Source: Clostridia bacterium (GTDB lineage Bacteria; Bacillota; Clostridia; Oscillospirales; CAG-272). From it: a DNA stretch of 56,011 nucleotides. The stretch is from NCBI GenBank assembly GCA_017399145.1, contig JAFQEG010000007.1, positions 1 through 56,011 of the forward strand, given 5' to 3'. Positions 2,069 through 56,011 of this stretch are shown in pieces. The position numbers were made by a program, and so were the translations under genes. Each line of letters starts with the position of its first letter. Position 1 is the stretch's first letter. A model generated the notes under the pieces. The model saw nothing but the letters and a program-made list of their open reading frames with translations, had not been told where the DNA came from and did no database searches.

Positions 2069-2095
2069 CAAAAAAGCCCCAAAACGAGGCTTTTA
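2069..2095 (-). terminator. Terminator of the relic 3' end and probably of the editing-protein gene
   Basis: In minus-strand sense a stem AAAAGCCTC/GGGGCTTTT with a 5-base loop is followed by a T run. It lies directly after the relic stop codon at 2093-2095. The intact gene has no terminator of its own between its stop and the relic. Confidence 0.6.
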
Positions 2096-2194
2096 TACTT
2101 CAACAAAGGTAGGTGTATGACCAAGGGCTGGTATTATTTTTTCGATCAAGTCCTTAGTCTTGATTTTTATAGAAGATGTATTTATACAGGGGTG
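2093..2194 (-). pseudogene. Orphan second copy of the last 34 codons of the downstream-facing editing-protein gene
   Basis: These 102 bases align without gaps to 2260-2361, the end of the intact gene, with 18 differences. The encoded 33 residues plus stop are the same except one Arg-to-Lys change, so nearly all differences are synonymous. That is what an allele of the gene from a related strain would look like, not a decayed duplicate. There is no start codon or ribosome site. It is separated from the intact gene by the palindromic element at 2195-2259. Confidence 0.85.
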
Positions 2195-2259
2195 TAAGCC
2201 TTCCCCTCGAGGGGAAGGGGTACCACCACTCACAAGTGGTGGTGAATGAGGTGTAGTAA
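2195..2259 (-). repeat. Gene-end palindromic element, copy 1
   Basis: Reading in gene sense it opens with TTACTACACCTCAT and closes with GAAGGCTTA. Between these lie two perfect hairpins, ACCACCACT/AGTGGTGGT and CCTTCCCCTC/GAGGGGAAGG. The ends match those of the elements at 6605-6693 and 50504-50565, but the first hairpin is unrelated in sequence. It is inserted exactly between the TAA of the gene and the relic copy of that gene's 3' end. Confidence 0.85.
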
Positions 2260-2793
2260 TTATACCTCAACAAAGGTAGGCGTATGACCAAGTGCTGGAA
2301 TAATCTTCTCTATTAAATCCTTTGTCCTTATTTTGATTGATGAGGTATTTATACACGGGTGACAGCTAAAATACTCCTTGTCAAGCAAATCCTTGTCAAT
2401 AACTAGGGAAACGTCGCACCCTGTGTCGCAAATTAAGCCCATAATGCTAACGGAGCCAGGTGTTAAATCAAGCATTCTTTCTAGGTCCTCGGGCGTGCCG
2501 AAGGACAAGCGAGAGGAATTTACCTTAGGGGAAAAATCCTTAGTTACAAAATGCTTTCTTGAATCCATAACCAAAAGATAAAACCTTGTCTTTTGCCTGT
2601 TGCAAAGAAACAAATTCTTGCAAATTAGATTGTCAAGCACCTTTTCAACCACCAAGCACTCTTCCATTGTGCCTGCACTTTCGTGGTCAACACGGTAATA
2701 CTCCACTCCTAACTTATCTAGAAAATCGTACACTCTAACCTCTTTTTTTAATCTTTTATCACAATCAAGTGGTCGTCCAACAAATAATTCCAT
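2260..2793 (-). CDS. YbaK/ProX-family prolyl-tRNA-editing-like protein
   Basis: A 177-residue protein of the YbaK/aminoacyl-tRNA-editing fold, the 'prolyl-tRNA synthetase associated domain' (PrdX/ProXp-ala) type. Such free-standing proteins hydrolyse mischarged Ala-tRNA(Pro) in the cytoplasm. Seen here are the conserved C-terminal stretch with a Gly-His near the end (PALGHTPTFVEV), the HPCxNT motif before it, and a hydrophobic core containing GLICDTGCDVSLVID. I chose the ATG at 2791-2793 because GAGGA lies 7 bases upstream; an in-frame ATG 36 bases further out has no ribosome site and lies in the hairpin array. The 3' end is duplicated beyond the stop. Family is fairly sure; the substrate is inferred. 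Confidence 0.82.
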   Translation of the reverse strand: MELFVGRPLDCDKRLKKEVRVYDFLDKLGVEYYRVDHESAGTMEECLVVEKVLDNLICKNLFLCNRQKTRFYLLVMDSRKHFVTKDFSPKVNSSRLSFGTPEDLERMLDLTPGSVSIMGLICDTGCDVSLVIDKDLLDKEYFSCHPCINTSSIKIRTKDLIEKIIPALGHTPTFVEV

Positions 2794-2809
2794 AATAATC
2801 CTCGTTTTA

Positions 2810-3020
2810 AGTGATATTTTGCAGTGCAAAGTGATATTATGCTAACGCATAGTGATATTTTCACTCCGTGAAAGTGATATTCTATTTGCCTTAAGTAATC
2901 TTCAACTTGGCAAAGCCAAATATCACTGCGAAGCAATATCACTGAGCTTGCTCAATATCACTTGCCGAAGGCAAATAGAGTTGAAAAAGCCGACGGCTTT
3001 TTCTGGGACAATCTGTCCCA
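2810..3020. repeat. Variable-hairpin array 1 (AGTGATATT spacers)
   Basis: Four direct copies of AGTGATATT (2810, 2830, 2851, 2873) alternate with perfect hairpins TTGC-AGT-GCAA, ATGC-TAAC-GCAT and TTCAC-TCC-GTGAA. After a 37-base centre come three copies of the complement AATATCACT (2919, 2935, 2954) alternating with GC-GAA-GC, GAGC-TT-GCTC and TGCC-GAA-GGCA. Two longer hairpins follow, AAAAAGCC-GAC-GGCTTTTT (2984-3002) and TGGGACA-ATC-TGTCCCA (3004-3020). Left and right spacers are complementary, so a transcript could fold into a long stem with hairpin side arms. The array ends about 17 bases before the start codon of the editing-protein gene. It fills the region without genes before 3185. 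Confidence 0.85.
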
Positions 3021-4427: not shown

Positions 4428-6398
4428 TTATTGAATTTTTTCACAGGATATAGAATATACAAGTGTATCCGTTTCGTAAACCGCCTTGTTTTCGTCGGCA
4501 GTTATATAGGTGCTTGCATTATCCTCGGTTATATAGTAACCACAGCAATAAAGCTCACTTGACAAGTATTCGTTACCTGTTTCGCCCTCAAGACCTGTTA
4601 TTTTAATTTCCATAATATCGTAGTTAAAGGCTTCAAAGCCACGTGTTATAGCCTTAACGTTTTCCTTGACTGCGCCATTTTCAAAAACGTCTGTATCTGT
4701 GCCAAGATTTGCAACAGTACCTGCAACTAAGCCATAGCCTACAATGTCATTTTCATTAACTGAATTATACAAGGAAAGCGCCTCTTTATTTACAACAAAG
4801 CCCTGCATAATAGCCACAGTGCCTACCTCGGTCTTAGTGTAGCCAAGACAAACGAAGATTGGACCAATCTCTTTTGTTACGTCACAAGCTGTACAGCCCT
4901 CGTTTGTGCACTCGTAGGTATAAACACCACTCGCTAGGAATCCATTCTTGTATTCAAGCTTTTCCACAACTGTATGTGTGTTACCCTCAAGCGCAAGTCC
5001 GCATACAAGACAGGTGTCCCCTGTTTCACAGTTGAAGTCGTCCTCTGCATACTTATGAGCAACTGCAAAGTAGCTTCCGTTTACCGTTGATGAATCCAAG
5101 ACGGTTGCATTTTTACAATCGTTTTCCTTAGTTGACCAAAGCTCACTTATAGTAGGCACACCATAGTCACTGCCTGTTAACGAGTAAGTTTTGTTTGTGC
5201 CTTGATTGTTATTCCATGCGTCCTTTAGGTTAACCCCTTGAATATAGCCCTCGATTGCCTTATATCTAGATAGACTTACGTCACCAATCACCAAAGAGTC
5301 GCTTACAAAGAAAGCAATAACGCTGTCCGAGCTACCCTTGTAGCCCTTCCAGTTAAATGAAGGGTCTGTTAACTGTTCCTCTGTTGTAGTTGCATCACTT
5401 ACAACCCATTTTCCATCAACAAGAGAAACAGAGCCACCACTGTATTTAAGAGTTTTTCCATATTCTTGATTCTTGAAGTAGCAGTATGTTACATTCTCGT
5501 TTGCAACACCGAAAATAGAAGAAATGTTGCCACTTGTACTAGCATAGTTTTCACCAATATAGCCACCAAATATAGCTACCGTGTTGCCTGAGGTTACGTC
5601 AATAAAGCCGTAAAAATTCTTATTCATACTAGCGTTTATTACGTTTTCATAGATTTTTCCACCATACATATTTACGTTACCATTTACGTAAATAAAGCCA
5701 CAGTCGGTGCTCCAATTTCGGTTACCTTGACTGTAATTGTGGCAAATCTCACCACCATAAATATTCAAGGCAGTAGTGTTAATAAGTGCAGCCGAATTGG
5801 CAGGAATACTGTTTCCACAGATTTTTGAGCCCTCGTACATATTAAATTCAGTAGCGTGAATAATTCTTGCCTTAACGTCTGAGTGTGTTGTAGTTAGATT
5901 AAAGCCACTAATTCTTGCACCGCTTAGCAAATTCCAAGTTAAATCCAACTTGCCACCTACGTACATAAGTCTTGGATTTGTTACGTTTGTACCATCATAG
6001 GTAAGCGTACCACCGTTGATACCACCAAGGTTCAAAACGTATTTACCCGCCGTGTCTGAATATTGCTGAAGCATACCGTTTCCGCTATAATTAGTTGGTT
6101 GAAGCTTGTAATTGCCACCATCTGCAATAATACTAATTTCTGTATTACCACCTGAAAACGAGCCCCAGCTCGATGGTTGCCAATTAGCCCTTAACACGTA
6201 AGTAATGCTTTTACCAAATTTTAAGCTTGCTGTTATGTCGCTAGTTATAACGATTGTATCGCCATCACTTGCAGAATCGTACGCCGAATTAAACTCGTCG
6301 CTATTGGTTACCACGTACTCAGTAGCCGAGGCAACAAGGCACAACGAAAGCATAAGCGCCATTACTAGCAAAGCAGTTATTAAAAGCTTCTTTTTCAT
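4428..6398 (-). CDS. Secreted surface protein with predicted beta-helix and conserved C-terminal module
   Basis: A 656-residue exported protein: signal peptide 1-25 ending ASA, then about residues 25-306 rich in short repeats of G-G-x-I-x-x-N and IFGGxI type, as in right-handed parallel beta-helix (pectate-lyase-like) proteins. Residues about 450-515 hold two CxxC pairs. The last about 140 residues carry a module with GY-x-FVV at its start and FDIMEIKITGL-type wording, which is also found in the LRR protein at 1-1913. No catalytic residues or wall anchor could be assigned, so adhesin and glycan enzyme are both open. ATG at 6396-6398 follows AAGGAGAAATTT. Single gene with its own promoter. Confidence 0.75.
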   Translation of the reverse strand: MKKKLLITALLVMALMLSLCLVASATEYVVTNSDEFNSAYDSASDGDTIVITSDITASLKFGKSITYVLRANWQPSSWGSFSGGNTEISIIADGGNYKLQPTNYSGNGMLQQYSDTAGKYVLNLGGINGGTLTYDGTNVTNPRLMYVGGKLDLTWNLLSGARISGFNLTTTHSDVKARIIHATEFNMYEGSKICGNSIPANSAALINTTALNIYGGEICHNYSQGNRNWSTDCGFIYVNGNVNMYGGKIYENVINASMNKNFYGFIDVTSGNTVAIFGGYIGENYASTSGNISSIFGVANENVTYCYFKNQEYGKTLKYSGGSVSLVDGKWVVSDATTTEEQLTDPSFNWKGYKGSSDSVIAFFVSDSLVIGDVSLSRYKAIEGYIQGVNLKDAWNNNQGTNKTYSLTGSDYGVPTISELWSTKENDCKNATVLDSSTVNGSYFAVAHKYAEDDFNCETGDTCLVCGLALEGNTHTVVEKLEYKNGFLASGVYTYECTNEGCTACDVTKEIGPIFVCLGYTKTEVGTVAIMQGFVVNKEALSLYNSVNENDIVGYGLVAGTVANLGTDTDVFENGAVKENVKAITRGFEAFNYDIMEIKITGLEGETGNEYLSSELYCCGYYITEDNASTYITADENKAVYETDTLVYSISCEKIQ

Positions 6399-6431
6399 AA
6401 ATTTCTCCTTAAAAAATACTTATACATTATA

Positions 6432-6460
6432 ATACTATCATAAAAGGAAGCAATTGTCAA
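6432..6460 (-). promoter_or_regulatory. Sigma-A promoter of the beta-helix surface protein
   Basis: Minus strand TTGACA (6455-6460), 17-base spacer, TAGTAT (6432-6437). The leader down to the start codon is nearly the same as that of the gene starting at 1913. Confidence 0.75.
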
Positions 6461-6520: not shown

Positions 6521-6527
6521 TAATGCT

Positions 6528-6559
6528 AAAAAAAAGCACACTCCACAAAGGGAGTGTGC
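6528..6559 (-). terminator. Distal (relic) copy of the nifJ terminator
   Basis: Stem GCACACTCC/GGAGTGTGC with 6-base loop and an 8-T tail on the minus strand. The proximal terminator at 6702-6727 has the matching stem GCACACCC/GGGTGTGC. The two differ by compensatory changes that keep the pairing. Confidence 0.85.
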
Positions 6560-6580
6560 CTCTTTTATACTATTAAGCTA

Positions 6581-6604
6581 TTAGTTATTCTCGTCTGGAG
6601 CGTA
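6581..6604 (-). pseudogene. Relic second copy of the last codons of nifJ
   Basis: Twenty-four bases encode YAPDENN-stop, the same as the real nifJ end at 6742-6765, with one synonymous change (AAT for AAC). The similarity continues past the stop into the terminator, so this is a second nifJ 3' end with its own flank. Separated from nifJ by the element at 6605-6693. Confidence 0.8.
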
Positions 6605-6693
6605 AAAAAGCCTTCCCCTTTGTTTGGAGGGCACCCTTTAGGGCGTGCCTTGTGCAGAAGGTGTCTGCAAAGCAGACGGATGAGGTGTAGTAA
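6605..6693 (-). repeat. Gene-end palindromic element, copy 2
   Basis: In gene sense it opens with TTACTACACCTCATCC, contains the hairpin GTCTGC-TTT-GCAGAC shared with copy 3, an extra hairpin around GGCAC/GTGCC, and ends in GGGGAAGGCTT. It lies after nifJ and its proximal terminator and before the relic nifJ end. A short frame across it, ending YYTSSVCFADTF when read on this strand, is not a gene. Confidence 0.85.
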
Positions 6694-6701
6694 AGCCAAT
6701 T

Positions 6702-6727
6702 AAAAAAGCACACCCCAAAGGGTGTGC
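6702..6727 (-). terminator. Proximal terminator of nifJ
   Basis: Stem GCACACCC/GGGTGTGC with a 4-base loop and a 6-T tail on the minus strand, 15 bases after the nifJ stop. Confidence 0.85.
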
Positions 6728-6741
6728 CTTTTATTTGTCTA

Positions 6742-9700
6742 TTAGTTGTTCTCGTCTGGAGCGTAGAGAGTGATAAATCTCTTAAGTCTTTCGTACTTAG
6801 CCTTAGCAGCCTCTTCGCTTGCAGTGAATAGCTTTTCAGCTCTTTCTGGGAACTGTTGAGCAAGACGGCTATAACGTGTCTCGTTTGTCAAGAATGCACG
6901 GTAATCGCCTGTTGGCTCCTTAGAGTCAAGTGTGAATGGATTCTTGCCCTCAGCCTTGAGCTGTGGATTGTATCTGAATAGATCCCAATAACCAGCCTCA
7001 ACAGCCTTCTTCATTTCGCCCTGGCAGTTAGTCATACCACCCTTTAGACCATGCATTTCACATGGAGCATAGCCGATAATGAGTGATGGACCATTGTATG
7101 CCTCAGCCTCTGCAATAGCCTTAATGGTTTGTGCAGGGTCAGCACCCATAGCGATTTGAGCTACGTAAACGTAACCGTAGGACATAGCGATTTCAGCAAG
7201 ATTCTTCTTACCAACTGCCTTACCAGCTGCTGCAAATTGAGCAACCTGACCGATGTTAGAAGCCTTTGAAGCTTGTCCACCTGTGTTAGAGTAAACCTCA
7301 GTATCGAATACCATAACGTTTACGTCCTCACCAGATGCAAGCACGTGATCAAGACCACCGAAGCCGATATCGTAAGCCCAACCGTCACCACCGAAGATCC
7401 ATACGGACTTCTTGGATAGGTATGTCTTTTCAGCAAGGATTTCCTTAGCTGTTGGACATCCAGCCTCTGCTGCCTTTTCAAGCTCAACGATAAGAGCCTT
7501 TGTAGCGCCCTCGTTAACCTTACCATTATCCTTAGACTCAAGGTAAGCATTAGCTGCAGCCTTGAATTCGTCGCTAGCCTTGTCGCTTTCAACCATAGAA
7601 GCAACCTTGCCGATTAGCTTCTCACGGATTGTCTTTTGACCGAGATACATACCAAGACCATGCTCAGCATTATCCTCGAATAGTGAGTTAGCCCAAGCTG
7701 GACCACGACCACTGTCCTTATTTACAGTGTATGGTGTAGCAGGAGCAGAGCCACCCCAAATTGATGAACAGCCTGTTGCGTTAGAAATGTACATTCTCTC
7801 GCCAAAGAGCTGTGTGATAAGACGTGCATAAGATGTTTCTGCACAGCCTGCACATGAGCCAGAGAACTCAAGTAGTGGCTGATTGAATTGGCTACCCTTT
7901 ACGCTAACCTCAGCGAATGGAAGCTCCTTCTTAGAAACGTTTGCAACTGCGTAATCAAATGGAGCCTGTTGATCCATTTGTGAAGCCTGTGGAACCATTC
8001 TAATAGCTGTCTTTTCTGGTGTACCGTTAGCCTTAGCCTTAATAGCAACAGGACAAACGTTTACGCAAAGACCACAGCCCATACAGTCAAGTGGGCTAAT
8101 TGCCATTGTGAACTTATAATCCTCACAGCCCTTACCAATCATCTTAGCTGTGTACTTTGTAGCCTTAGGAGCCTTCTTTGCTTCGTCAGCATTCAATGCG
8201 AATGGACGGATTGTAGCATGTGGACATACGTAAGCACAGTTATTACATTGGATACAGTTTTCTGGTAGCCATTCTGGAACCAAAACTGCAACGCCACGCT
8301 TTTCGTAAGCAGCAGCGCCCTGTGGGAACGTACCATCAACGTAGTCAACGAAAGCAGATACAGGAAGCTTGTCGCCTTCCATCTTAGAAACAGGAAGAAG
8401 TACGTTTTCAACATACTTAACAAGGTCAGCGCGCTTGCCAGCAACCTTTTCCTTCTTGTTTGCAACCTTAATTGTCTTCCAGCTTTCAGGAACCTCAACC
8501 TTTACAAGTGCGTCCTTACCAGCATCAATTGCCTTGTAGTTCATCTCAACCACAGCCTCGCCCTTCTTTAGGTAGGACTTCTTAGCCATGTACTTCATCT
8601 TCTCGATAGCCTCATCAATAGGCATAATGTTTGCAAGTGTGAAGAATGCGGATTGGAGAATTGTATTTGTTCTCTTACCCATACCGATTTCAACAGCCTT
8701 GTCAATAGCATTTACGATATAGAAGTTGATATTGTTTACAGCGATGTACTTCTTAACCTCAGCTGGGAGATTCTTTTCAAGGTCCTCAACACTCCATTGG
8801 CAGTTAAGTAGGAATGTACCACCTGGCTTAACGTCATTAACAATCTTGTAGCCCTTGAGCATATAAGATGGGTTATGACATGCAACGAAGTCAGCCTTTG
8901 TAATGTAGTATGGGCTCTTAATTTGCTTGTCGCCGAAACGAAGGTGAGAAATTGTTACACCACCTGTTTTCTTAGAGTCATACTGGAAGTAAGCTTGAAT
9001 AAACTTGTCGGTATAGTCACCGATAATCTTAATAGAGTTCTTGTTAGCACCAACAGTACCGTCACCGCCAAGACCCCAGAACTTGCAAGAGATTGTACCC
9101 TCAGCAGAAGTATCTGGTGCATTCTTTTCAGGAAGTGAAAGACCAGTAACGTCGTCAACGATACCGATTGTGAAGTTAGCCTTTGGCTCTCTCTTCTTAA
9201 GATTTTCATATACTGCAAAGATAGATGCAGGAGTTGTGTCCTTAGAACCAAGACCGTAACGGCCACCAACAACCTTACCCTTGAAGCCCTTAAGTGCAAG
9301 AGCAGAAATAACGTCAAGGTAAAGTGGCTCACCAAGTGAACCTGGCTCCTTAGTTCTGTCAAGAACAGCAATCTTCTTAGCTGTCTTTGGAATAGCCTCG
9401 TAAAGCTTATCAGCAACGAATGGACGATATAGTCTAACCTTAACAAGACCAACCTTTTCACCATTTGCGTTGAGGTAGTCGATAACCTCCTCACAAACGT
9501 CACATACAGAGCCCATAGCAACGATTACTCTGTCTGCATCTGGAGCACCGTAGTAGTTAAATGGCTTGTAGTTAGTGCCAATCTTTTCGTTTACCTTATT
9601 CATATACTCTTCAACGATTGCAGGGAAAGCATCGTAATATGTATTACAAGCCTCTCTGTGCTGGAAGAAGATATCACCGTTTTCAGCAGAGCCACGAAGA

Positions 9701-10344
9701 ACTGGGTGCTCTGGGTTGATTGAACGGCTTCTAAATGCTTGAATAGCATCCTTGTCAACCATTTCATCAAGGTCCTTATAGTCCCAAACCTCAATCTTTT
9801 GGATTTCGTGGGAAGTACGGAAGCCATCGAAGAAGTTAAGTACAGGAACTCTACCCTTGATTGTAGCAAGGTGAGCAACTGCACCAAGGTCCATAACCTC
9901 TTGTGGGTTAGTGCAAGCCATCATAGCATAGCCTGTTTGACGACAAGCATATACGTCAGAGTGGTCGCCGAAAATGTTAAGTGCGTGAGATGCAACGCAA
10001 CGAGCAGAAACGTGAATAACGTTAGGAAGAAGCTCGCCGGCAATCTTGTACATGTTAGGAATCATCAAAAGAAGACCCTGTGATGCTGTGTAGGTGGTTG
10101 TAAGAGCACCTGCAGCAAGTGAGCCGTGAACTGTACCAGCAGCGCCAGCCTCAGACTGCATCTCTTGAACCTTAACCTCTTCACCAAAAATGTTCTTTAA
10201 GCCAGTTGCAGACCAAGAGTCTGTAAGCTCAGCCATAACACTTGATGGTGTGATTGGGTAAATCGCTGCAACCTCTGTAAACGCATAGCTGACAGTAGCG
10301 GCGGCGGTATTACCGTCCATTGATTGTTTTTTTCTTGTAATCAT
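6742..10344 (-). CDS. nifJ: Pyruvate:ferredoxin (flavodoxin) oxidoreductase, single-chain
   Basis: A 1200-residue cytoplasmic enzyme, the usual length of homodimeric PFOR. It oxidises pyruvate and CoA to acetyl-CoA and CO2 with reduction of ferredoxin, the main pyruvate route in anaerobes. All domains are in order: N-terminal TPP-domain with YPITPSSVMAE, the transketolase-like middle, and two 4Fe-4S motifs at about residues 690-765 (CIQCNNCAYVCP and CMGCGLCVNVCP). Further on come the C-terminal TPP-binding site GGDGWAYDIGFGG near residue 985 and VYSNTGGQ after it. The ATG at 10342-10344 follows GGAGG by 8 bases; an upstream in-frame ATG lacks a site. Single-gene unit with its own promoter. 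The 3' end and terminator are duplicated beyond an inserted repeat. Confidence 0.97.
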   Translation of the reverse strand: MITRKKQSMDGNTAAATVSYAFTEVAAIYPITPSSVMAELTDSWSATGLKNIFGEEVKVQEMQSEAGAAGTVHGSLAAGALTTTYTASQGLLLMIPNMYKIAGELLPNVIHVSARCVASHALNIFGDHSDVYACRQTGYAMMACTNPQEVMDLGAVAHLATIKGRVPVLNFFDGFRTSHEIQKIEVWDYKDLDEMVDKDAIQAFRSRSINPEHPVLRGSAENGDIFFQHREACNTYYDAFPAIVEEYMNKVNEKIGTNYKPFNYYGAPDADRVIVAMGSVCDVCEEVIDYLNANGEKVGLVKVRLYRPFVADKLYEAIPKTAKKIAVLDRTKEPGSLGEPLYLDVISALALKGFKGKVVGGRYGLGSKDTTPASIFAVYENLKKREPKANFTIGIVDDVTGLSLPEKNAPDTSAEGTISCKFWGLGGDGTVGANKNSIKIIGDYTDKFIQAYFQYDSKKTGGVTISHLRFGDKQIKSPYYITKADFVACHNPSYMLKGYKIVNDVKPGGTFLLNCQWSVEDLEKNLPAEVKKYIAVNNINFYIVNAIDKAVEIGMGKRTNTILQSAFFTLANIMPIDEAIEKMKYMAKKSYLKKGEAVVEMNYKAIDAGKDALVKVEVPESWKTIKVANKKEKVAGKRADLVKYVENVLLPVSKMEGDKLPVSAFVDYVDGTFPQGAAAYEKRGVAVLVPEWLPENCIQCNNCAYVCPHATIRPFALNADEAKKAPKATKYTAKMIGKGCEDYKFTMAISPLDCMGCGLCVNVCPVAIKAKANGTPEKTAIRMVPQASQMDQQAPFDYAVANVSKKELPFAEVSVKGSQFNQPLLEFSGSCAGCAETSYARLITQLFGERMYISNATGCSSIWGGSAPATPYTVNKDSGRGPAWANSLFEDNAEHGLGMYLGQKTIREKLIGKVASMVESDKASDEFKAAANAYLESKDNGKVNEGATKALIVELEKAAEAGCPTAKEILAEKTYLSKKSVWIFGGDGWAYDIGFGGLDHVLASGEDVNVMVFDTEVYSNTGGQASKASNIGQVAQFAAAGKAVGKKNLAEIAMSYGYVYVAQIAMGADPAQTIKAIAEAEAYNGPSLIIGYAPCEMHGLKGGMTNCQGEMKKAVEAGYWDLFRYNPQLKAEGKNPFTLDSKEPTGDYRAFLTNETRYSRLAQQFPERAEKLFTASEEAAKAKYERLKRFITLYAPDENN

Positions 10345-10377
10345 AAAAAAACCTCCAGTTTTTATTTTAAACAAGTT

Positions 10378-50461: not shown

Positions 50462-50503
50462 TTATCTGTTTTTATATTCCTTCAAAATTTCCTCAGCAAC
50501 CCA
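50462..50503 (-). pseudogene. Relic second copy of the SASA esterase 3' end
   Basis: Forty-two bases encode WVAEEILKEYKNR-stop; the real gene ends WVAEEILKGYKSR-stop. Most base changes are silent. A third, shorter copy EYKNR lies between the gene stop and the element (50566-50580) with only silent changes to the relic. Confidence 0.8.
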
Positions 50504-50565
50504 TAAGCCTTCCCCTTTGTTCGGAGGGGAAGGTGTCTGCAAAGCAGACGGATGAGGTGTAGTAA
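50504..50565 (-). repeat. Gene-end palindromic element, copy 3
   Basis: 62 bases: TTACTACACCTCATCC, hairpin GTCTGC-TTT-GCAGAC, hairpin CCTTCCCCT/AGGGGAAGG, closing with AAGGCTTA in gene sense. It is the cleanest copy and is flanked by copies of the end of the same gene. Confidence 0.85.
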
Positions 50566-50580
50566 TCTATTTTTGTATTC

Positions 50581-51444
50581 CTACCTACTCTTATACCCTT
50601 TTAGTATTTCCTCAGCAACCCACATATTTAGCTCGCCTGTGTAGTGGATAAGATCCCAACGATAGATGCCACTGTCCCAAATGGATGGGTTGTAGCGAGG
50701 GCATTTTGTTGGGTCGAAAAGCTTTACGTCCTCCATTTCGAAGGTTAATTGCTCAAACACGTAGTTAATATAGGTCATAATTCCAAGGTGAGAACCTGTT
50801 GGGTCCTCCTTTAGGAAAACCTGAACGTAAGGCATTTTGTGCAAGGTGATTGGCACCTTATAGCCAACTGATTCACGAAGTGCATTAAAGAAGGTCTTAT
50901 AGTCATTCTTTAGCTTGTCGTCAACTAGCGTTTCAATAGGACGTCTTACCTCCTGCTCGCCACCTCGCCAGTGCATACCAACAAAGTCAGGCTCTAGGTC
51001 GTTATCCTTAAAATACTTATTAAGTAGCTTTAAAATATGTATTGTAAATGGGAAAAGTGAAATATCAACCGTGCCCAAAACACCGGGGATTAGCTTTCTT
51101 TCCATTTCCATATTCCACATATCGTAAAGCCCCTGTGAGCCTATTGAAATTTGCACAATGTACAAGTCGGGCAAATCAGCCCCATTATCAATATCTGCCT
51201 GCCAAAGCTTTGCAAGCTGATTAGGCACAGAATAGGTATTGTCCTGAGTTTCTGCAAGATTCATACCGAAGCTTGTATATCCCTCAAAGGTAAGCTTATC
51301 AATATCAAAGCTTTGATTTTTATCTCTATTAAGACCAAAAACGTTTTTAAGTGGCGTTGAAATGTAGTCCTCCTCCTTCATAGGCATTCCGTGACCTGTG
51401 GCGTTGGACTGACCAAAAATCATAAATACAGCTACCCTTTTCAT
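50581..51444 (-). CDS. SASA-type carbohydrate esterase
   Basis: A 287-residue protein without signal peptide. The start reads VFMIFGQSNATGHGMP, the block I Gln-Ser-Asn of the SASA/sialate O-acetylesterase (CE6-like) group. LYIVQISIGSQGLYDMW and MHWRGGEQE (block with Gly and the Q/E) follow. It lacks an obvious final D-x-x-H next to the C-terminus except HLGIMTYI, so the catalytic His is uncertain. It overlaps the upstream membrane-protein gene by four bases (ATGA), so they are co-translated. Its 3' end is duplicated beyond an inserted element. Confidence 0.75.
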   Translation of the reverse strand: MKRVAVFMIFGQSNATGHGMPMKEEDYISTPLKNVFGLNRDKNQSFDIDKLTFEGYTSFGMNLAETQDNTYSVPNQLAKLWQADIDNGADLPDLYIVQISIGSQGLYDMWNMEMERKLIPGVLGTVDISLFPFTIHILKLLNKYFKDNDLEPDFVGMHWRGGEQEVRRPIETLVDDKLKNDYKTFFNALRESVGYKVPITLHKMPYVQVFLKEDPTGSHLGIMTYINYVFEQLTFEMEDVKLFDPTKCPRYNPSIWDSGIYRWDLIHYTGELNMWVAEEILKGYKSR

Positions 51445-53369: not shown

Positions 53370-53525
53370 GTTTACTATGCAGGGACCCCAAAAAAGTCGC
53401 AGACTTTTTGGGGTTCTCGCAGTAAACTCATAACAATTGCAAAAGCAATTTCATAACGTCAACGCAGTTGACTCATAACACTTGCTATGCAAGTTCATAA
53501 CTGAAAATTAGCTGAGCTAATTTTC
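53370..53525. repeat. Variable-hairpin array 3 (TCATAAC spacers) abutting the BspA stop codon
   Basis: A large nested hairpin comes first: outer GTTTACT/AGTAAAC at 53370 and 53421, inner CCCCAAAAA/TTTTTGGGG. Then four exact TCATAAC spacers (53428, 53451, 53473, 53495) alternate with AATTGC-AAAA-GCAATT, GTCAAC-GCA-GTTGAC and ACTTGC-TAT-GCAAGT. A last hairpin GAAAATTAG-CTGAG-CTAATTTTC (53503-53525) closes the array. One arm of the last hairpin is the final three codons (Glu, Asn, stop) of the LRR gene. Confidence 0.88.
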
Positions 53526-56011
53526 CTTGTAGCCCCAAACAACAGGACAATTTGAACTATTCCAATCCACGTCCCAGCCATCTGGCTTACTTTCCGCCTC
53601 ACAGCAGATAGTAAGCCTCGTGCAATCCTTAAAGGCAATCCAGCCAATTGAGGTTACGCTATTTGGAATTACTATACTTATAAGGCTCGTGCAACCTAAA
53701 AAGGCATACCTACCAATTGTTGTTACACTATTTGGAATTTCTATGCTTGTAAGCTTGTAGCAATACTCAAAGGCAGAGTCACCAATTGTGGTTACACCAT
53801 TTCCAATTGTTACACTTGTAAGTGACGTGCACTCATAAAAGGCAAAGTCGCCAATTGTTGTTACACTATTTGGAATTTCTATGCTTGTAAGATCGTAGCA
53901 ATCCGAAAAGGCAGAACTACCAATTGTTGTTACACTATTTGGCATTTCAACACTTGTAAGTCCTGAACATCCCGCAAAAGCCCCCTCTCCTATTATGGTT
54001 ACGGGCTTTCCTTCTATCTCGGCAGGAATTACAACATTAGTAGCTTCATCGTCAACGCCGACAATTATAACCTCGTTCTCCTCAGTTACGTCCCATTTTA
54101 AGTCACTAGCACTTGTATTTTGCTCCTTACAATTCCAAACAACAGGACGGTTCGAACCATTCCACCCCTCGTACCAACCACTTGGTTGACTTTCTGCCTC
54201 ACAGTAAATAGTAAGTCCTGTGCAACCCTCAAAGGCAAAAACACCAATTGTTGTTACACTATTTGGAATAGTTATACTTGTAAGCCCTGTGCAACCAGAA
54301 AAGGCACAACTACCAATTGTTGTTACGCTATTTGGAATTACAATACTTGCAAGTGACGTGCAATCATAAAAGGCAGCGTCGTCAATTGTTGTTACTCTGG
54401 TTGGAATTACAATACTTGCAAGTGACGTGCAATTATAAAAGACAGAGTCACCAATTGTTGTTACACTATTTGGAATTTCTATGCTTGTAAGTCCCGTGCA
54501 ATTATAAAAGGCAGAGTCGCCAATTGTTGTTACGCTATTTGGAATTTCAATGCTTGTAAGTCTTGCACAACCCCCAAAGGCACGCCTACCAATTGTTGTT
54601 ACTCTGGTTGGAATTACAATACTTGCAAGTGATGTGCAATTATAAAAGACAGAGTCACCAATTGTTGTTACACTATTTGGAATTTCTATGCTTGTAAGCC
54701 CCGTGCAATTATAAAAGGCAGAGTCGCCAATTGTTGTTACACTATTTGGAATTTCTATGCTTGTAAGTCCCGTGCAATTATAAAAGGCAGAGTCGCCAAT
54801 TGTTGTTACGCTATTTGGAATTTCTATGCTTATAAGTCCTGTACAACCAGAAAAGGCAGAGTCGCTTATTTCAACAACCTTTATTTCGTTTATTGTTTCG
54901 GGAATTATTAATTGAGTAGTGCCTTCCACTGCCCCAACTATTTTAACGTCTCCGTTTTCCGTTGTTTTCCATATCATGTTATTATAAGCTCTTTTATGTC
55001 CCCAAACAACAGGATGATTGCTTGAATTCCACAAGTTATCCCAACCGCTTGGTTGGCTTTCTGCCTCACAGTAGATTGTAAGTCCTGTGTAACTCCTAAA
55101 GGCATATTTACCAATTGTAGTTACGCTATTTGGAATTGTTACACTTGTAAGGTTGTGGCAAAGGTCAAAGGCAGATTCACCAATTGCCGTTACTCTATTT
55201 GGAATTACTACGCTTATAAGTCCTATACAATTTCGAAAGGCAGAGTTGCCAATTGTAATTACACTATTTGGTATTTCTATGCTTGTAAGGCTCTCGCAAT
55301 CCGCAAAAGCATAGCTTCCAATTGTAGCAATGCTATTTGACATCACAACGCTTGCAAGAGATGTGCAATTATCAAAGGCAGAATAGCCGATCGAGGTTAC
55401 ACTATTTGGCATTTTTATACTTACAAGGCTATCGCAACCTTCAAATGCATAGTTGCCAATTGTAGTTACTCCGCTAGGAATTACAAGATCGGTTACAAGT
55501 ACACCATTTAAATATAGATTTTTTGCATAATACAGTGGGTTTGAAGCATAGTCACTAAATGATACATTGCACCAAGCACCTATATCGCTAATATCTACTC
55601 TTGTAAGCCCTGTGCATACCTCAAAGGCACTCCTTTCAATCGAGGAAACACCATTTCCAATTGTTACACTTGTAAGGTTTGTGCAACCGGAAAAGGTATA
55701 ACTATTAATTGTTGTTACACTATTTGGAATTTCTATGCTTGTAAGTCCCGTGCAACGCTCAAAGGCAGAACTACCAATTGTTGTTACTCCGGTTGGAATT
55801 ATAATACTTGCAAGTGACGTGCAATCATAAAAGGCAGAGTTGCCAATTATAGTCACACTATTTGATATTTCTACACTTGTAAGTCCTGAACATCCCGCAA
55901 AAGCCCCCTCTCCTATTATGGTTACGGGCTTTCCTTCTATCTCGGCAGGAATTACAACATTAGTAGCTTCATCGTCAACGCCGACAATTATAACCTCGTT
56001 GTCCTCAGTTA
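53517..56011 (-). CDS. BspA-type leucine-rich-repeat surface protein, N-terminus beyond the window
   Basis: An 831-codon open frame that runs off the right edge. It is almost wholly 23-residue LRRs of the form LTSIEIPNSVTTIGDSAFYNC, interrupted by four linker blocks with CEAESQPSGW...WNSSN.PVVW and three E-N-E-V-I-I-V-G-V segments (DDEATNVVIPAEIEGKPV in part). Such proteins are exported and bind surfaces. The signal peptide is outside the window. Many repeats are identical at DNA level, showing recent internal duplication. The stop codon is one arm of a hairpin of array 3. Confidence 0.88.
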   Translation of the reverse strand, partial: TEDNEVIIVGVDDEATNVVIPAEIEGKPVTIIGEGAFAGCSGLTSVEISNSVTIIGNSAFYDCTSLASIIIPTGVTTIGSSAFERCTGLTSIEIPNSVTTINSYTFSGCTNLTSVTIGNGVSSIERSAFEVCTGLTRVDISDIGAWCNVSFSDYASNPLYYAKNLYLNGVLVTDLVIPSGVTTIGNYAFEGCDSLVSIKMPNSVTSIGYSAFDNCTSLASVVMSNSIATIGSYAFADCESLTSIEIPNSVITIGNSAFRNCIGLISVVIPNRVTAIGESAFDLCHNLTSVTIPNSVTTIGKYAFRSYTGLTIYCEAESQPSGWDNLWNSSNHPVVWGHKRAYNNMIWKTTENGDVKIVGAVEGTTQLIIPETINEIKVVEISDSAFSGCTGLISIEIPNSVTTIGDSAFYNCTGLTSIEIPNSVTTIGDSAFYNCTGLTSIEIPNSVTTIGDSVFYNCTSLASIVIPTRVTTIGRRAFGGCARLTSIEIPNSVTTIGDSAFYNCTGLTSIEIPNSVTTIGDSVFYNCTSLASIVIPTRVTTIDDAAFYDCTSLASIVIPNSVTTIGSCAFSGCTGLTSITIPNSVTTIGVFAFEGCTGLTIYCEAESQPSGWYEGWNGSNRPVVWNCKEQNTSASDLKWDVTEENEVIIVGVDDEATNVVIPAEIEGKPVTIIGEGAFAGCSGLTSVEMPNSVTTIGSSAFSDCYDLTSIEIPNSVTTIGDFAFYECTSLTSVTIGNGVTTIGDSAFEYCYKLTSIEIPNSVTTIGRYAFLGCTSLISIVIPNSVTSIGWIAFKDCTRLTICCEAESKPDGWDVDWNSSNCPVVWGYKEN
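53950..54088 (-). repeat. 139-base direct repeat, copy A, inside the LRR gene
   Basis: Same as 55873-56011 with a single difference (54078 against 56001), 1923 bases apart. The period is a whole number of codons, so it marks a duplicated block of the protein. Confidence 0.9.
54392..54758 (-). repeat. Tandem 207-base duplication of three LRR units
   Basis: The block beginning TTACTCTGGTTGG at 54392 recurs at 54599 with about three differences over some 160 bases. 207 bases is three units of 23 codons. Confidence 0.8.
55873..56011 (-). repeat. 139-base direct repeat, copy B, at the window edge
   Basis: Matches 53950-54088 with one difference; it may continue outside the window. Confidence 0.9.

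Follow-up and report, generated by a model that had tools for sequence, protein, structure and literature searches.

Integrative elements that enter the 3′ ends of genes restore the gene, and the resulting order is intact gene, element, displaced gene end. MITEs usually duplicate a few bases of their target. The insertion sequences IS1549 and IS1634, of the IS1634 family, are flanked by direct repeats of 8–514 bp, for which no accepted model is reported (PMC2266710). Partial gene duplications were reported to arise by single crossover of a truncated circle, as judged by PCR in 56 of 60 clones, and measured 109–950 bp in the 14 clones sequenced (PMC3240628). At Rhs and type VI secretion loci, incoming gene ends are reported to displace old ones, leaving “orphan” ends (PMC5361080).

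The repeat described here, which we call E, shares features with several of these systems. As with 3′-end integrative elements, the order is intact gene, E, displaced gene end; E, however, is 50–143 nt long in the genome studied, is non-coding, and has no fixed core at its junction. In 19 diverged copies no constant core of the tyrosine-recombinase type was found: the identical run beside the inner junction (p, where the AAGCC end of E meets the gene-end copy) was 2–38 nt long, with no common sequence apparent by eye. Like MITEs and REP-like repeats (reviewed in PMC10969869), E is short, non-coding, hairpin-forming, multicopy, and mainly intergenic, but it has no terminal inverted repeats (AAGCCTTCCCC is unlike CTACACCTCATC read from the other side), no linked transposase was found for the one transposase family searched in the genus, Y1, and its duplications are far longer. 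Like IS1549 and IS1634, E is mobile-looking DNA between long direct repeats of variable length; unlike them, it has no transposase gene or terminal inverted repeats, is orientation-biased, and has flanking copies that appear to be different alleles. E sites also resemble the products of homology-facilitated illegitimate recombination or single-crossover integration in having one homologous side, one non-homologous junction, and a partial gene duplication, and the displaced gene ends have a parallel in the “orphan” ends of Rhs and type VI secretion loci. They differ in that the non-homologous junction is formed by one end (AAGCC) of a conserved repeat, and in that the targets include the housekeeping genes mnmG, typA, and nifJ. 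A sequence-only reading of this DNA knew of no described element with such behavior, and searches of the open-licence literature by motif and by topic likewise found none.

The window, a 56,011-nucleotide stretch of DNA from a Clostridia bacterium, contains three E sites, at the positions given in that reading:

2093–2194, minus strand: remnant 3′ end of the tRNA-editing gene, joined to the AAGCC end of E
2196–2256, plus strand: E copy 1 (AAGCC...GTAG, 61 nt), with a CCACCAC-type hairpin 2; fold z −5.2
2260–2361, minus strand: intact tRNA-editing gene 3′ end; 82% identity with the remnant
2260–2829, minus strand: aminoacyl-tRNA editing domain gene (PF04073)
6521–6604, minus strand: remnant of the pyruvate:ferredoxin oxidoreductase gene end and terminator
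6608–6690, plus strand: E copy 2, 83 nt; additional palindromic module within hairpin 1; fold z −1.6
6691–6765, minus strand: intact pyruvate:ferredoxin oxidoreductase gene end and terminator
6742–10374, minus strand: pyruvate:ferredoxin oxidoreductase (nifJ) gene
50463–50503, minus strand: remnant of the “esterase” gene 3′ end
50505–50562, plus strand: E copy 3 (58 nt), with a GTCTGC-type hairpin 2; fold z −5.2
50566–50622, minus strand: intact “esterase” gene 3′ end
50581–51444, minus strand: gene earlier named “esterase”; no Pfam or NCBIfam match

A repeat search returned direct repeats of 107 nt (81%; 2093–2199 and 2260–2366), 34 nt (88%; 6571–6604 and 6732–6765), and 41 nt (76%; 50463–50503 and 50582–50622) at the three sites, respectively; a gapped alignment at the second site spans 87 columns at 79% and extends through the terminator. 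The earlier names held for nifJ and for the editing protein, while “esterase” is kept here as an unconfirmed label. Beyond the first two remnants, segments 1903–1977 and 6388–6460 are 83% alike over 75 bp, and both lie upstream of leftward frames with signal-peptide-like starts. A large BspA-type leucine-rich repeat protein (PF13306) is encoded at 53517–55856.

E consists of AAGCCTTCCCC, two hairpins, and GATGAGGTGTAG. Read in order, AAGCC is followed by hairpin 1 (CCTTCCCC/GGGGAAGG), the sequence of which is constant, by hairpin 2, in which pairing is constant and sequence varies, and by GGATGAGGTGTAG. The constant end is CTACACCTCATC; the longer form TTACTACACC proposed from the window was right in this part, and its trailing TTA varies. 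The 15-mer GATGAGGTGTAGTAA, with up to two mismatches allowed, occurs three times in the window against 0.07 expected, and no Rfam family matched within the window at gathering score. As single-stranded DNA, copies 1 and 3 fold far more stably than shuffled sequences on the plus strand (z −5.2 for both) and on the other strand (−6.2 and −6.4), while the longer copy 2 gave a weaker signal (−1.6 and −2.5). In a covariation set of 25 sequences picked by hand out of 78, hairpin 1 was nearly invariant, and 22 cells of hairpin 2 were changed on both sides versus 6.9 in shuffles (0 of 500 shuffles reached this value); the number of covarying pairs (four) was unexceptional, being matched in 81 of 500 shuffles. 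A rare hairpin-1 loop, TTTGATTGG, occurs in 2 of 99 E copies. Longer copies (L001, L005, L006, L025, L034, and others) contain recurrent additional palindromic modules within hairpin 1 (GGGCACCCTTTAGGGCGTGCC..., CGATTCCCCTGTGAGGGGAAATGTCGC...), as if hairpins nest in hairpins. In many copies, including L299, L305, and L310 of genome G203 and L018 and L020 of the window’s own genome, a third hairpin (GATGCGAAGCATC or CCTCAAAGAGG) directly follows GTAG; it is absent from the copies in the window. Downstream of typA in G024 (L269), a pair of diverged, inverted E-like elements carrying GCCTTCTCC/GGAGAAGG hairpins escaped the pattern searches; counts of E in relatives are therefore lower bounds.

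The genome of the window is a 1.83 Mb draft, 76% complete, in which 24 exact matches to GGATGAGGTGTAG were found and pairing of both ends yielded 26 E copies. The sequence-only reading would have been undermined had most other copies lacked a duplicate of the neighboring gene end; instead, in 22 of the 26 a direct duplication begins 0–3 nt from the AAGCC end. The alignment scores of these abutting duplications range from 33 to 188. As a control, left and right flanks of different E copies were combined into 650 pairs; the 95th percentile of their scores was 28 and the 99th was 83, the latter being high because several copies belong to one array. With array-wide alignments excluded, the duplications are 17–105 columns long, mostly 40–105 bp. 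The distance on the GTAG side is variable, at 0–43 nt, whereas the AAGCC junction is fixed within 0–3 nt. The four exceptions are the third unit of L014, an array member whose best match is another unit, L026, whose flank reaches only 25 bp before the contig ends, and L027 and L031, where there was none. The duplication beside E is thus a real and general feature of this genome.

Across all fetched stretches, which come from this genome, congeneric genomes, and some more distant ones and are not a full census, 53 of 99 copies have a duplication (22 of 25 in the own genome, 31 of 74 elsewhere), sites shared between genomes being non-independent. In more distant genomes and viral contigs, any above-threshold repeat accompanied 6 of 90 copies and an abutting one only 2 of 90, one of the latter being a tandem of E itself. 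Of 291 class-level genomes, 9 contained the strict E pattern, one of them in 36 copies, as did 85 viral-contig stretches (L321–L400), some with up to four matches, which may be prophage or host DNA. Thus, E is widespread, and its association with duplications occurs mostly within this genus. At L014, L068, L076, L181, and L182, two to three E units form arrays. Several duplications are 95–100% identical and many others are diverged alleles; near-identical examples lie close to E on both sides (L024, 75 columns, 98.7%; L007, 82 columns, 98.8%, 81/82; L033, 50 columns, 100%, 50/50; L022, 72 columns, 97.2%). All genomes are drafts, many of them from metagenomes, and reading frames were called mechanically.

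The orientation of E relative to the duplicated gene is strongly biased. Of 53 rows analyzed with stop-to-stop frames of at least 90 codons, 33 have an open frame that runs on past the inner border on the GTAG side, one (L028) has it on the other side, and 19 have it on neither; among the 34 informative rows, then, the intact gene is on the GTAG side in 33. A left frame is touched as well in seven of these 33, and in L034 it is the longer of the two (371 versus 197 codons). The bias was 30:1 after arrays were collapsed by hand (two-sided binomial, 3e-8) and 26:1 after four two-species sites were collapsed as well (4e-7). The frame points towards E in 28 of the 33 rows and away from it in five; insertion antisense to transcription, as an alternative description, fits somewhat less well. 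The 39 E copies without a duplication have no side bias, with a gene 3′ end facing E 20 times on the left and 20 times on the right, on which ground selection for terminators was rejected as the source of orientation. The earlier restriction to gene 3′ ends proved too narrow, although most cases do concern 3′ ends: in L034 the duplicated piece is the beginning of an Amidase_6 gene (ribosome site, start codon, and initial codons), and in L033 it is a promoter region upstream of a radical SAM gene.

The two copies of a gene end differ mostly at third codon positions. In the tRNA-editing gene, 17 of the 18 differences between remnant and intact end are at third codon positions. Over 33 rows, the differences at codon positions 1, 2, and 3 number 22, 24, and 126, with 108 codons differing synonymously and 42 non-synonymously; these totals include the contrary rows L014 first, L178, L181, and L020, in which the frame is probably wrong or the ORF spurious. 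The corresponding counts are 5, 10, and 57 in the 16 own rows, and 3, 1, and 48 in nine own genes chosen as reliable. The two end copies of a dedA-like gene (L006) are identical over the 23 bases beside the junction, yet have seven successive codons that each differ at the third base. An excess of identity beside p, which could be a sign of crossover, is weak: in the 19 diverged copies the mean run was 10.8 versus 8.0 (P 0.018), with P 0.20 at the other end. The third-position excess (126/172) implies that the diverged copies are not a single target-site duplication decaying neutrally, as the sequence-only reading had argued from their non-identity, and both the remnant and the intact end look like real alleles of the gene.

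Among 29 congeneric genomes, different species were found to share some junctions. Of the 25 genomes in which mnmG was found, four have E after the gene. The duplication has the same p in the own genome, G022, and G026, while in G011 E is present without a duplication; in the remaining mnmG genomes, no E was found within the 400 nt searched with two mismatches allowed, diverged elements such as those of L269 being uncounted. The mnmG sites of the own genome and G026 share the rare loop TTTGATTGG and differ in hairpin 2, which suggests a crossover inside E. typA, also found in 25 of 29, has E at nearly the same p in the own genome and G026. At ybaK, p is common to the own genome and G022. At the “esterase” site, the own remnant type resembles the intact type of G026, and the reverse, as judged by eye. 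Hairpin 2 differs at every site shared between species. The shared p weakens the case for the own “esterase”-, mnmG-, and ybaK-type sites being independent insertions. Intact sites free of E are those of typA and nifJ in G022 and of the dedA-like gene, found in 9 of 29 genomes, in G022 and G026; the own dedA remnant with its downstream flank resembles the gene end and flank of G022.

The comparison with relatives proposed earlier for telling which copy is native gave a mixed outcome. G022 sides with the intact end at dedA (5 to 1) and with the remnant at typA (1 to 6), and polarizing with G026 and G018 also gave mixed answers; the relatives are different species, so that the assignment of native and incoming alleles is not certain. 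With G022 as the reference for ybaK, sites nearest the junction tend to match the remnant and later ones the intact copy, as expected for hybrids. This reciprocal-hybrid pattern is only suggestive at ybaK and mnmG, and mixed at dedA and typA. The pair G010 and G023 was unusable as a filled and an empty site, since E there falls within a 1.5 kb difference, with a pair of inverted E copies in G010 and one decayed E in G023. In L286 (G010:C11, ca. 5400–6250), compared with L285 (G023, 8970–9085), the two inverted copies flank a gene where G023 has the single decayed E, and the gene between them is a possible gene cassette.

The clearest record of recombination is in G026, where E units and gene-end copies alternate in an array after a DHDPS-family gene and every copy has the same inner junction. 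Among the first three gene-end copies (the fourth is decayed and was left out of the mosaic test), 25 informative sites fall into seven runs; seven or fewer were obtained in 5 of 200,000 shuffles. Copies 2 and 3 agree beside the junction, copies 1 and 3 in the middle, and copies 1 and 2 towards the stop. These allele blocks show that crossovers or conversion took place within the gene-end copies. The array might also be a foreign unit integrated into a resident gene, and stepwise ordinary exchange could give the same blocks.

We propose, at about even chances, that an oriented insertion duplicated a gene end and that species then exchanged gene ends by homologous recombination in the copies and in E. 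E would be placed at gene ends in one orientation, its AAGCC end joining the gene at a point p, either internal or at the gene’s edge, and its GTAG end meeting a point q outside the gene; the piece between p and q would then be present twice and the gene would stay whole. Such a birth would be a long oriented duplication. Later homologous recombination, with crossovers within the gene-end copies and within E, would swap gene ends between lineages, which is possible because the copies and E alike share homology with the corresponding locus of other strains and species. The expected outcome would be remnant and intact ends that are different natural alleles, a shared p with different hairpins in E, and arrays. 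In this scheme the anatomy of the duplications, their orientation, and the allele mosaic were observed; the birth reaction and exchange by transformation-like uptake are what we infer. A ComEC-like competence protein, present in 26 of the 29 congeneric genomes, is compatible with DNA uptake and does not prove it. Because junctions are shared between species at mnmG, ybaK, typA, and the “esterase” gene, later allele exchange at an old insertion would explain much of the divergence. The earlier idea that incoming DNA carried a homologous gene end agrees with the third-position bias, the DHDPS mosaic, and the exchanged “esterase” types; its corollary, a foreign end brought by each insertion, is not needed. 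The near-identical copies at L033 (50/50) and L007 (81/82) may reflect duplication at birth. Against the two-stage reading stand the inconsistency of the native copy between loci and the fact that no mechanism accounts for the orientation. No helper enzyme for E was found among the two families searched in the genus, and neither tracks E among the 29 genomes: Y1 transposase is present in 12 of these drafts and absent from the own genome, G010, and G019, all E-rich, and a reverse transcriptase domain is present in three, the own genome included, and not in G022 or G026. The own reverse transcriptase domain gene (PF00078) is a single one, at G000:C20:67839-68459 (L415).

Alternatively, E and a GTAG-side gene stub could move as one piece with a fixed AAGCC end and integrate by homology at the same gene of another cell, whether by homology-facilitated illegitimate recombination or as a circle that enters through a single crossover; a foreign end would then arrive with every insertion, as the sequence-only reading proposed. 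The fixed AAGCC junction (0–3 nt) with a variable GTAG side (0–43 nt in own copies), the intact gene on the GTAG side in 33 of 34 rows with no bias in copies lacking a duplication, and the allele blocks of the DHDPS array all agree with it, and a circle with a truncated lacZ end offers a precedent, its single crossovers giving partial lacZ duplications of 109–950 bp (PMC3240628). It requires, however, an unseen linear or circular intermediate and, for the perfect and near-perfect duplications, a same-species donor, and the p shared across species implies that many copies were inherited or exchanged rather than newly inserted; on balance we hold it to be rather unlikely. As to birth alone, such a one-ended piece is favored by the bias in orientation and by the combination of a fixed junction at AAGCC with a variable one at GTAG, and the near-perfect duplications abutting both ends (L024, L033, L007, L022) fit a long oriented target duplication equally well. 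A bolder version, rather doubtful, casts E as the active end of a minimal system for exchanging gene ends. In it, E would move itself and the gene stub, always the one on its GTAG side, insert by homology at the cognate gene of other strains or species, and leave the old end as a fossil, so that the ends of housekeeping genes become exchangeable with no encoded recombinase.

A staggered cut of ca. 40–105 bp made by some unknown transposase, with copies drifting neutrally afterwards, would account for near-identical duplications that abut both ends of E, and IS1549 and IS1634 have long variable direct repeats (8–514 bp; PMC2266710). The third-position excess of 126/172 is unlike neutral decay of a non-coding remnant, orientation bias is unexpected, and no transposase of the family searched (Y1) is tied to E; this reading is improbable as a whole, being hard to hold for diverged copies and surviving only as the birth step. 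That strains were joined at the repeat during metagenome assembly deserves thought, since all genomes are MAG-like drafts and E is often found at contig ends, but separate assemblies have the in-gene junction at one and the same position, and the pieces joined there are mutually homologous, not random, so we consider an artifact very improbable. E could also be a bacterial SINE-like element, inserted by target-primed reverse transcription of an RNA whose end is hairpin 1; this would fit the one fixed and one variable end and the 0–3 additional bases at the fixed end. It is harder still to credit, with no reverse transcriptase domain found in the drafts of G022 and G026, both rich in duplicated copies, and with the gene-start cases lying antisense to the RNA. 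Slippage of the replication machinery at the palindrome, which would produce a tandem of gene end and E, has the arrays of two to three units in its favor, but it predicts unit next to unit, and single-copy cases have no E after the outer gene end; we regard it as the least probable of all.

If the proposed oriented duplication followed by exchange is true, a repeat of 50–100 bases makes oriented, gene-preserving duplications, and the unexplained long direct repeats of IS1549 and IS1634 would be reopened as a question. Species would then swap the ends of essential genes with E as their homology anchor, each replaced end remaining as a readable fossil, and recombination among uncultured gut bacteria would become datable and polarizable, locus by locus.
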